Shown one piece after another: positions 14,111 to 54,619 of a DNA stretch of 64,000 bases. Positions within the stretch are counted from its first letter, which is position 1. Each line of letters begins with the position of its first letter. Origin of the DNA: Myxococcales bacterium 68-20 (GTDB lineage: Bacteria > Myxococcota_A > Polyangia > Polyangiales > Polyangiaceae); NCBI GenBank assembly GCA_001899635.1, contig MKVQ01000044.1:1-64000 (forward strand), read 5' to 3'. Made by a program: the position numbers and the translations under genes. The notes beneath the pieces were generated by a model. The model worked only from the letters and a program-made list of their open reading frames with translations, ran no database searches and was not told the origin of the DNA.

Positions 14111-15514
14111 TCATTCTAGCGTGTCTTTCCCCTTCGCGCGCTTGTACTCGCGGAGCGCGGCGACCTCGGAACGGGAGGGGTTGATCACGAGCAGGCCGTG
14201 ATCGGCATCGAGCAGTGCGACGTCGCCGTCGGCTGCCCACTTGAACAGGCCCTCGACCCCGACCATTGCGGGGACGCCGAGGAGGCGGAGGAGCGAGCGC
14301 GTCCGCGGCCCGGTCGCGCGGTCGGTGAGGGCGACGCCCACCGGGTGCGCACGCGCCGAGATGAGGAGATCGAACACGCTGAGCCCATCGCCGACGAGGA
14401 TCCCCTTCTGCGGGAGCTCGGCGCGCTTGTCTGCCTGTGCGAGCATCACCAGCGCATCGCAGAGGTCTTCGATGTCGCGAGCGCGCTCCTCGAGGAAGGC
14501 GTCGCGCGTGATCGAGGCGGCGGTGCGGGTGACTTCGCGCGCGACCCGACCGAGCGCGACCGCGATGCCCTGGCCCTCGGCGACGAGCTCGTCCGCACGC
14601 TCGCGGAAGCGCGCATCGCCGAGGATGTCGACATAGGTGGCGAGGAAACCGGCCTGATCGCCCAGGCGCATCGCCCGCGCGCGCTCCGACAAGCCACGCA
14701 TGGCCTTGTCGGCGACGTCGAACGCGCCGCGGAGGAGCTTCTGCTCTTCCTTCACGTCACGCGTCTGCGTCGAATCGTTCGGGCGGCCGCTGGACGGGCG
14801 CCGGAGCGCGGCGATCGCGCCGATCGCGCGCCCGGCGATGAACGGCCGGCCGGTGAGCGTGACCTTGCGCGTGCCCCCGCCGGCCTTGCGCGGGGAAGGA
14901 GCGTGTTTCTCGCGCTCGGCGTCGATGAGCTCGGCGTGGCGTATGCCCGCGGCGATGATCGCGCCGAGCGCGGCGAGGAGCTCGAGGTCACGCTCCTCGA
15001 ACTGACCGCGTCCAGGGACGTCCTTGCGCTGGATCACGAGCGCGCCGAGCGGCCCCACCTTCCCGCGAATGGGTACGGACAGGAAGATCGGGAACCGCTC
15101 CTCTCCGAGATCCGCGAAGTGCTTGTAGGCTCGATGCGAGCCCGCGTTGTCGCTCGTGACCGGGCGCAGGTATTCGACCGCCTCGCCCGTCATGCCTTCG
15201 CCGATCGCGAGACGGACCTGCCCCAGCGCCTCGGGCGTGAAGCCGACGTTTCCGCGCATGACGAGCTCGTTGCCGCAGCCCTCGACGAGGTAGAGCGAGC
15301 AGACGTCGGCGTCGAAGATGGCGGCAATCCGCGCCGGAGCTTCGTCGAGCAGGGAGACGAGAGGCATCGGCTTCGCCGCAAACGCGACGAAGTCGAGGAC
15401 GCCGTCGAGGCGCTTGTTGCCTCGATCGTGGACCGTCGCACGGCCGCCGCGGATCGTAGCGGCTACGGTGGCAGCGCTCGACTCGGAGACGGTGCGGGAG
15501 TTGGGCGGTGACAT
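14111..15514 (-). CDS. PtsP-like protein: GAF domain plus degenerate EI region, no TIM barrel
   Basis: 467 residues. A GAF domain (about 45-190) is followed by the helical and swivelling part of PTS enzyme I (about 220-460). In active EI/PtsP the phospho-histidine sits in G-G-R-T-S-H-T; here the matching stretch is DRATGPRTRSLL, with no His. The C-terminal PEP-binding TIM barrel (about 300 residues) is missing, and the frame ends at a normal stop soon after the swivelling domain. The protein therefore cannot accept phosphate from PEP in the usual way. It could sense a ligand through GAF and act as a non-catalytic regulator. A clean frame throughout argues against a recent pseudogene. Other PTS genes are not in the window. 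Confidence 0.75.
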   Translation of the reverse strand: MSPPNSRTVSESSAATVAATIRGGRATVHDRGNKRLDGVLDFVAFAAKPMPLVSLLDEAPARIAAIFDADVCSLYLVEGCGNELVMRGNVGFTPEALGQVRLAIGEGMTGEAVEYLRPVTSDNAGSHRAYKHFADLGEERFPIFLSVPIRGKVGPLGALVIQRKDVPGRGQFEERDLELLAALGAIIAAGIRHAELIDAEREKHAPSPRKAGGGTRKVTLTGRPFIAGRAIGAIAALRRPSSGRPNDSTQTRDVKEEQKLLRGAFDVADKAMRGLSERARAMRLGDQAGFLATYVDILGDARFRERADELVAEGQGIAVALGRVAREVTRTAASITRDAFLEERARDIEDLCDALVMLAQADKRAELPQKGILVGDGLSVFDLLISARAHPVGVALTDRATGPRTRSLLRLLGVPAMVGVEGLFKWAADGDVALLDADHGLLVINPSRSEVAALREYKRAKGKDTLE

Positions 15515-15686: not shown

Positions 15687-16127
15687 ATGTCAGCAGCAGC
15701 CGAGCTCGACTTTCCCTCCGAAGCATGGGTTCTTGCATACAGGGACGCCATCAACGCAAACCCCGAGTATGCGAAGGCCGGCAAGGACTGGACGCACGGC
15801 GTCGTCGCGATGGTCGTGAAGGCGGAGCCCTCGCTCGGGATCGACGAGGACCTCGCGATGTGGCTGGACGTCCACGAGGGGCGCTGCCGTGATTGCAAGC
15901 TCCTCCCCGCCAAAGAAGCGGAGAGCGCGGCACCCTTCGTCGTGGTCGCCAGCTACGCGCAGTGGCAGCAGGTCATCAAGAAGGAAATCGATCCGACCAA
16001 GGCGCTGATGCAGGGGAAGTTGAAGCTGACCAAGGGCCACATGCCCACGATGGTGAAGCACGTCAACGCCTCGAAGCAGCTCGTCGAGTCGACCTCGCGC
16101 GTCCCGACGAAGTTCCGCGGGCAGTAG
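15687..16127 (+). CDS. SCP2 sterol-transfer-like protein
   Basis: 146 residues. The layout fits a lone SCP2 fold: an amphipathic N-terminus (SEAWVLAYRDAINANPEY), central beta strands (VVAMVVKAEP, LAMWLDVHEG), PFVVVASYAQW, and the typical GKLKLTKGHM turn before a C-terminal helix. SCP2 domains bind lipids or acyl-CoAs in a hydrophobic tunnel. Such lone proteins are common in myxobacteria near fatty-acid genes; an acyl-CoA dehydrogenase lies 3.4 kb away but is not co-transcribed. No signal peptide. Confidence 0.7.
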   Translation: MSAAAELDFPSEAWVLAYRDAINANPEYAKAGKDWTHGVVAMVVKAEPSLGIDEDLAMWLDVHEGRCRDCKLLPAKEAESAAPFVVVASYAQWQQVIKKEIDPTKALMQGKLKLTKGHMPTMVKHVNASKQLVESTSRVPTKFRGQ

Positions 16128-16262: not shown

Positions 16263-17057
16263 ATGACCACTTCCGCCCCGCTCGTTCTCGTCGCGGATGA
16301 CGAGCCCTCGATGTTGGAGCTCGTTGCTCGTCACCTCCGTACGATGAGCGACCCGAAGCTCGAGGTCATCCAGGCCTCGGATGGCGAGGAGGCCTGGCGG
16401 CTCGCGCAGGAGCATCTGCCCGATCTCGTCGTGCTCGACGTGATGATGCCCGGCATGAGCGGCTGGGAAGTGTGCCGCAAGATCCGTGAGGACATCGCGC
16501 TCGCGCACACCGGCGTCGTCATGCTCACGGGGATCGGCGAGAACCTGAACCAGATGACGAGCCCGCTCTACGGCGCGGACGCGTACATCGACAAGCCGTT
16601 CGAGTTCGAAGATTTCGACGACAAGGTCCGCGACACGCTGAGGTCGCGTGAAGCCCAGCGCCTCGGGGTCGTTCGTCCGTCGATCAATGGCGCGGCCGGC
16701 GCGGCAAAGCCTGCCGAGGTCACGGGCGTCGCCGCCGAGGTGTCGAAGCCCGTCGCGAAGGTCGCGAAGGTCGCAAAGACGAAGGTCAAGGCGACGGCCA
16801 AGCCGGTCGCGAAGGCCGCGAAGAAGGTGGCAAAGAAGGTCGCGAAGAAGGTCGCGAAGAAGGTCGCGAAGGCAGCCACCAAGGTGGCGAAGGCCGCGAC
16901 CAAGGTCGCGAAGAAGCCCGCCGCGAAGAAGCCGACTGCGAAGAAGGCTGCGAAGAAGCCCGTCGCGAAGAAGGCTGCGAAGAAGCCCGTCGCGAAGAAG
17001 GCTGCGAAGAAGCCCGTCGCGAAGAAGGCCGCGAAGAAGGCCGCGAAGAAGCGCTGA
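16263..17057 (+). CDS. response regulator with histone-H1-like Lys/Ala tail
   Basis: 264 residues. Residues 1-130 are a complete receiver domain: acidic pair D12/D13, phospho-acceptor D59 in LDVMMPGMSGW, switch Thr in MLTGIG and K111 in YIDKPFEF. Residues about 141-264 are a Lys/Ala/Pro/Val tail of KVAKK and KKPVAKKAAK repeats, like eukaryotic histone H1 or bacterial Hc1 C-termini, expected to bind DNA or RNA without sequence specificity. There is no HTH, ATPase or GGDEF output domain. The tail gene segment contains a 27-bp unit repeated perfectly three times (16941-17021). No partner histidine kinase is adjacent. The function is inferred from domain content. Confidence 0.85.
   Translation: MTTSAPLVLVADDEPSMLELVARHLRTMSDPKLEVIQASDGEEAWRLAQEHLPDLVVLDVMMPGMSGWEVCRKIREDIALAHTGVVMLTGIGENLNQMTSPLYGADAYIDKPFEFEDFDDKVRDTLRSREAQRLGVVRPSINGAAGAAKPAEVTGVAAEVSKPVAKVAKVAKTKVKATAKPVAKAAKKVAKKVAKKVAKKVAKAATKVAKAATKVAKKPAAKKPTAKKAAKKPVAKKAAKKPVAKKAAKKPVAKKAAKKAAKKR
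16941..17021 (+). repeat. 27-bp in-frame tandem repeat, three perfect copies
   Basis: The unit encodes KKAAKKPVA and repeats exactly at 16941, 16968 and 16995 inside the Lys/Ala tail of the response regulator. The identity at DNA level suggests recent slippage expansion. Confidence 0.95.
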
Positions 17058-54012: not shown

Positions 54013-54309
54013 GGGACCGCGTCGTCAACGGCTCGGTCCAGGCTCGGGGCAATAACCCCCGATCGTATTCGACTTGCTCATCTCACCCTCCCCCTGAAAT
54101 GGCGTCTCAGCACGGGCCGTCGTCGTGACGGAGCTTTTGGGGCGCACGAACTTCGACGGATGCGCTCAATCAAGGATTACAACCAAAGACGACCAATGCA
54201 ACCCGCTTGTTCTCGGCCCTTGACGCTGCGCAAATGGTGAGGAGCGTGGAGCCCTGGGTGAGGTGACGGTGAGGCCGTAGCCCGCGCCCCGATCCTTCTC
54301 GTGTCGCGA
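54013..54309. other. intergenic DNA upstream of the protease operon
   Basis: No gene recognised. It includes the minus-strand promoter region of the protease operon (not identifiable by eye) and a phrase GCTCAATCAAGGATTACAA (54162-54180) that resembles GCGATTGAGGATTACAT at 56722-56738 on the far side of the IS element. Confidence 0.4.
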
Positions 54310-54447
54310 TGGTTCCAACCGCTTTCGAGCCGGTCGCGACCGCCTCCACGGTGGTTCCAACCGTCTTCGCGTGGGTCGCGCCCGCCTCCGCCGTCGTTCC
54401 AGTCGTCCTCGCGTGGGTCGCGACCGCCTATGCGGTGGTCCAACCGT
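54310..54447 (+). repeat. 42-bp tandem repeat, just over three copies
   Basis: Units begin at 54310, 54352, 54394 and (partial) 54436 with TGGTTCCAACCG or near variants, each with a TCGCGACCGCC or TCGCGCCCGCC block. Length 42 bp keeps one frame (V-P-T-x-F/L-x-W-V-A-x-A units) but no start site or plausible protein. It abuts the IS4 fragment. Confidence 0.85.
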
Positions 54448-54619
54448 CGACGAGCCCAAGATGGAGCTGTTCGATCGCGAAGAGGCCATCCGCAGCAAGG
54501 AGCGCGAAGGAGTCGAGCAGGAGCTCTGGGGGAACCTGCTCGCGTATAACCTCGTGCGACTCGAGATGGCCCGTGTCGCGAAGATCGTGCAGGTCGAGCC
54601 TGAGAGACCGGCTCTCTGG

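Follow-up and report, generated by a model that had tools for sequence, protein, structure and literature searches.

A Myxococcota single-domain response regulator with a histone-H1-like tail that may tether it to the nucleoid

What does a histone-H1-like tail do at the end of a signaling receiver? The question is raised by an open reading frame of Myxococcales bacterium 68-20, which lies in a stretch of 64,000 nucleotides that we analyzed as a whole and refer to as the window. The original prediction was that the tail takes the place of an output domain and brings about global DNA compaction or phase behavior under the control of phosphorylation. The answer that we favor, tentatively and at slightly below an even chance, is that the tail, acquired a single time on the line leading to the window's family, tethers a partner-binding receiver to the nucleoid, most likely via chromosomal DNA.

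An intact receiver followed by a basic tail

The open reading frame (16263..17057, + strand; limits exact) starts with ATG and encodes 264 amino acids. Pfam, AlphaFold2 and fold matches agree on a receiver domain in residues 1–130 (16263..16652), the core of a single-domain response regulator; all features of the gene given below are likewise on the + strand. PF00072 (Response_reg) is the sole Pfam domain of the protein (residues 8–122; E 4.6e-23; score 82 bits, where 30.2 is required), and the residues that mark a receiver are all present: the acidic pair D12-D13 of the phosphorylation site (16296..16301, from receiver comparison), D59 (16437..16439), which by homology to receivers would be the phospho-acceptor and is kept in 71 of 71, the switch threonine T89 (16527..16529), and the conserved lysine K111 (16593..16595). 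AlphaFold2 gave pLDDT values above 90 in 11 of the 13 ten-residue blocks of this domain, and a structure search returned receivers as its nearest solved folds, RpaA and PhoP ranking first. The Pfam scan gave PF00072 alone, with no OmpR/PhoB-type DNA-binding output domain at the C-terminus and no HU domain of the kind that would mark a HupB; the TIGR02154 PhoB model scored 85.3 bits against a cut-off of 296.2, its match being confined to residues 7–132. An identity as EpsW was rejected, since NF041866 scores 56.8 bits against its equivalog cut-off of 200.

The receiver is followed by about 134 residues that are mostly Lys, Ala, Pro and Val, so that the predicted fusion of a receiver to a tail holds. 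These residues comprise a linker (131–154; 16653..16724), partly conserved in near relatives (identity 0.54–0.79 to nine of them), and the basic K/A/P/V tail proper (155–264; 16725..17054), as delimited by composition, AlphaFold2 and tail comparison. The tail is predicted to be mostly disordered (pLDDT mostly below 50), with a less certain helix at residues 180–215. From residue 131 on there are 43 Lys, every one encoded by AAG. Among 356 stop-to-stop frames of at least 100 codons, this was the only one in the window with at least 11 Lys per 50 residues; five neighboring window proteins contain 5.2% Lys and 7.0% Arg. Near 81 related loci, none of 1963 other ORFs of at least 120 amino acids ended in such a tail (in a mechanical listing that excluded the receiver cluster itself and any ORF interrupted by masked X). 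K/(K+R) is 0.85 in 62 tails, whereas it is 0.36 in the receivers of the same proteins, and Ala and Pro are kept, which bears out the predicted histone-H1-like composition. Over the last 60 residues of the tails, the median net charge is +0.40 per residue, with L067 as the sole negative case.

In L067 (Sorangium So ceGT47, from 5379), which we scored as long tailed despite its frame switch, the K/A-rich basic tail continues in the +1 frame from about its middle and the gene's own frame turns E/G/R-rich, through either mutation or sequencing error. Nearly neutral tails exist as well: those of G060 and L095 have a net charge of +7 over 115 residues, and that of L035, which is cut, has −0.04 per residue. 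L037, L038 and L041 carry a long D/E-rich block between the receiver and the basic tail.

When a tail of 60 residues or more is called long, the 55 complete long tails range from 76 to 489 residues (median 134), as expected from the earlier claim of repeat-driven change in tail length. The perfect 27-bp repeats on which that claim was based are also real. An exact period-27 run of 92 bp (16938..17029), detected by a repeat scan, contains three full copies of the unit GCGAAGAAGGCTGCGAAGAAGCCCGTC, beginning at 16938, 16965 and 16992. Synonymous recoding of the tail with the codon usage of five neighboring genes reached an exact run of 92 bases in only 1 of 5000 trials; thus, the amino acid sequence by itself does not account for the repeat in the DNA. 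Two other tandem repeats were seen in the window, one of 106 bp in two copies (1259–1468, 93% matches) and one of 42 bp in 3.5 copies (54305–54448, 78% matches).

Beyond the linker, identity of the tail to those of nine near relatives was 0.61–0.81, against means of 0.64–0.71 for shuffled tails (z from −0.6 to 3.1), while the receivers of the same relatives are 85–98% identical. Four of the nine keep tail similarity above that of the shuffles (z 2.1–3.1), and a fifth, L010, gave z 1.9; judged from these comparisons, turnover of the tail sequence is incomplete. Since the letters drift to near composition-level similarity and the excess of Lys over Arg, together with Ala and Pro, persists, the plain reading would be that selection acts on composition. 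The window tail matched no Pfam family at E ≤ 0.01, including HC2 (PF07382); in a profile comparison of 43 of the 62 long tails, made without a composition control, 16 of the 43 gave an HC2 match. A search of the tail against solved structures returned six matches at E ≤ 10 (best 0.063), which we took as chance.

Distribution of the receiver and history of the tail

A receiver match was found in 73 of 96 genomes of the order at E ≤ 1e-30 and in 116 of 282 genomes of the phylum at E ≤ 1e-28, with one match per genome at the respective cut-off. The source genome (11.9 Mb, 52 contigs) has 135 receiver-like matches among 150 scored, and its next-best receiver match is far weaker (E 3.5e-20). Within the best 80 of at least 419 named loci, a set biased to relatives close to the window, the closest are Labilithrix MAGs at 96% and 95% identity, and the tailed records include Labilithrix, Sorangium and Minicystis. 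Outside the order, receiver identity to the window drops to 46–54%, so that the relatives there are putative orthologs, assigned by the signatures that they have in common with it. By its sequence, the protein belongs to a single-domain response regulator that is widespread in Myxococcota.

Conservation within the receiver does not follow the tail. In a comparison of 62 tailed receivers with 61 others, D13, D59, T89 and K111 never vary, and D12 is present in 87% of the former and 98% of the latter. W68, N96, T99 and A105 are also invariant in both groups, and S100, P101 and L102 reach at least 97% in each. A signature on the beta4–alpha4 face, G90–D106 (16530..16580; consensus GIGExLNEMTSPLYGAD), within which AlphaFold2 places a helix at 93–103, is kept with and without a tail; G90 itself stands at just 75% in the 61 others. 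Because this face, with its unusual alpha4 motif, is the same in both groups, we infer that it may serve one old partner, either a kinase or a target.

These data bear on the mechanism first proposed for this protein, in which phosphorylation of the receiver would directly switch tail-driven compaction or condensation of the chromosome. The phospho-site is indeed kept in the sampled receivers and the tail has an H1-like composition, but receivers that lack the tail conserve their motifs just as well, which suggests that the job of the receiver predates the tail. In addition, the window protein has Ala in place of the second Asp of the RpaA ADDY segment, and the residue is mixed in other relatives (Ala in 17, Gly in 16, Asp in 16 and Glu in 9 of 61); we take this position to be part of the dimer interface of OmpR-type regulators. 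Nothing that we found favors direct control of compaction by phosphorylation over a plain tether, and we consider the direct switch quite unlikely. A related idea, that a two-component signal alters how the tail binds, bridges or condenses DNA in a protein that arose once from a bare CheY-like protein in the Polyangiaceae and their kin, also seems unlikely to us. If true, such a phosphorylation-switchable nucleoid protein would constitute a link from signaling to chromatin.

The occurrence of the tail was read from the gene ends, which we determined at 176 loci, with starts set mechanically, and collapsed to 125 by identical receiver start. The genes read cover 19 of 19 matching genomes of the window's family (f1), 37 of 54 other matching genomes of the order and 18 of 79 beyond the order. 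All 19 genes found in f1 have a tail, which is at least 72 residues long in 18 and cut by the contig end after 33 residues in one. In f8, the receiver is followed by 22–24 mostly basic residues in five of five genomes. The 54 loci outside f1 and f8, some of them genes fetched twice, have 0–14 residues past the receiver (36 loci of f2, f3, f5, f6, f9, f10 and f11, and 18 outside the order). Tail-less relatives, which would count against the original prediction if their function were unchanged, are thus abundant. Of the 27 f1 genomes, 8 yielded no such gene even at E ≤ 1e-18 (apart from two weaker matches in one of them), so that the cell can probably do without it.

On a tree built for 123 receivers, with 128 columns and a quick method that left many forks unresolved, the distinction between long and not-long tails corresponds to a single change, and the branch with all 59 bare or short-tailed rows has an SH-aLRT of 98 (L165 and L170 were left out for their short receivers, and the contig-cut L058 and L179 were unscored for tail class). 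Given that rows of the other classes extend past the receiver by 14 residues at most, a gain is simpler than a loss, and the long tail would have been gained once, on a bare receiver. The data do not support a tail that took the place of an output domain: the orthologs read outside f1 and f8 are bare receivers and the tail maps to one change, so that it appears to have been added to a protein without an output domain.

Could slippage at repeats in the G+C-rich end of the gene have produced a neutral tail that has no function? The exact 27-bp repeats and the difference of repeat units between species would fit this explanation, as would the AlgP repeats, which reportedly vary between clones as well. 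We regard it as highly improbable, however, because the long tail is one change on the tree, tail-less orthologs number 0 among the 19 f1 genes, and Lys is kept against Arg, with last 60 residues that are basic (median +0.40 per residue).

Neighboring genes and other proteins of the source genome

The preferred reading, a receiver tethered to the nucleoid together with a partner, can be set against the surrounding genes. Directly upstream, on the same strand, lies a gene for an SCP2-like protein (15687..16127, +; PF02036, E 1.1e-7), relatives of which flank 25 of 81 loci by blastp, all 25 being tailed. At tailed loci, the gene is often divergent to genes for a 650-residue protein, MoxR, DUF58 and a BatA-like protein; the 650-residue neighbor has no Pfam match, and its start looks membrane-like by eye. 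MoxR and DUF58 are present in 23 of 60 tailed loci, and a BatD gene is present in 13 of 20 bare loci, both being minimum counts, as flank lengths differ, over loci that are not independent within one clade. In 20 further regions, the Bat link was found in four of the eight inside the order (f1, f5 and f6), namely L211, L212, L214 and L220, and in none of the 12 outside it by tblastn at E ≤ 1e-6, a search that diverged copies may escape; a link to Bat genes across the phylum was not seen. L213 has SurA/PpiC neighbors only, and BatD in the source genome sits on a different contig. A single-domain receiver stands beside a MoxR/DUF58/BatA gene row in L032 (3–4489), and L061 (389–8186) has the row BatA-TPR-BatD-TPR/SH3-receiver-PpiC-SurA-ECH. 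The receiver may once have served a MoxR/Bat envelope system; such neighbors in relatives would fit a membrane-side partner, counter to a nucleoid tether.

The kinase partner implied by the original prediction did not emerge from the neighborhood; the nine window proteins scanned, a subset of the ORFs at 10.9–20.7 kb, include no kinase domain. They also include no RNA-linked domain, which argues against the possibility that the tail binds RNA or ribosomes instead of DNA. Basic disordered tails generally bind RNA, and this gives that possibility its rationale; we nevertheless deem it very unlikely. The product of the gene at 14111–15514 (−) joins a GAF domain to an N-terminal PTS enzyme I region (PEP-utilisers_N), and domain and profile scans found no PEP-binding part in it. 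Its segment TGPRTRSLLRLLGVPAMVG, which we take to be the site of the active-His motif of enzyme I, apparently lacks the His; the product is possibly a pseudo-enzyme.

The nine proteins contain no polyP gene product either, which counts against the rather unlikely case that the tail brings the receiver to a granule, of polyphosphate or another polyanion, in the manner of AlgP. With its H1-like tail of KPAA repeats, AlgP associates with polyP granules, and their spacing depends on it, but it starts with what is described as a helical domain and not with a receiver (PMC9239181). The Lys-rich, low-complexity tail here is of the same general make-up.

Within the source genome, no similar tail was found in 150 scored of 847 candidates. 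None of its four HU-like proteins has one, nor do its two topoisomerase-family frames end in one, the second having a short K/R/G/S-rich stretch that is internal and not terminal. Hence, among the known DNA-binding proteins looked at in this genome, none supports the tether by analogy. The best own-genome match to HC2 (L119) overlaps a gene whose EKAAA/EKAAQ repeats are long, and we attributed it to composition and not to an H1-like protein; the five others fall below the cut-off. The L119 frame with the long EKAAA/EKAAQ run (484–2928, −) has a masked N stretch inside.

Possible action of the tail and comparison with known systems

Our proposal starts from a single-domain response regulator that is old in Myxococcota and that, when phosphorylated, would act via the conserved protein-binding face of its receiver. 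On the line leading to the window's family (named members Labilithrix, Sorangium and Minicystis), it would have acquired, a single time, a long tail that is disordered and composed of Lys, Ala and Pro. The tail would bind polyanions without sequence specificity, chromosomal DNA being the most likely, and would thereby tether and concentrate the receiver and its bound partner on the nucleoid. Phosphorylation would work through the protein partner and not by directly switching compaction. Near-neutral tails, acidic D/E blocks and the f1 genomes in which the gene was not found count against a tether.

The combination is real and well delimited, and a receiver with an H1-like tail was not met in the literature titles and abstract starts searched, a set that mostly does not cover subscription papers. 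It offers a natural series on one conserved receiver, from bare, through a basic tail of 22–24 residues, to an H1-like tail of 70–490 residues, which lets one ask what a histone-like tail adds to a signaling protein. It is also a case for studying a disordered region whose composition is kept more than its sequence.

The bare relatives resemble EpsW and DifD of Myxococcus xanthus and CheY, in which the receiver stands alone. EpsW acts through a binding partner protein and, in the part of the report available, has no basic tail described (PMC12802240); its model score is below the cut-off here. The tail has its counterparts elsewhere. As far as the accessible parts of these reports go, mycobacterial HU, HupB, carries on its folded domain a long C-terminal tail of the PAKK/KAAK type that stabilizes DNA binding and is needed for stable binding in vivo (PMC5676037), and Streptomyces TopA has a lysine-repeat C-terminal tail, also on a folded domain, that stabilizes DNA binding (PMC7398561). 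In HupB and TopA the folded part itself acts on DNA, whereas here it is a signaling receiver. AlgP and PhaF of Pseudomonas combine a folded N-terminus with a K/P/A repeat tail thought to tie that folded part to the nucleoid, and DNA binding in vitro was seen for KPAA peptides and for a fragment of the AlgP tail (PMC9239181). Their N-terminus is not a receiver, and they have KPAA repeats in contrast to the mixed VAKKAAKKP-like units here. HC2 (PF07382) has the K/A-rich composition in common, but the present protein is a receiver and not an HC2. Such likeness in composition is not homology; because the tail resembles those of HupB, TopA, AlgP and PhaF in this respect, we think that it may play the same role on the receiver as theirs do on their own folded domains, keeping it at the nucleoid or at another polyanion.
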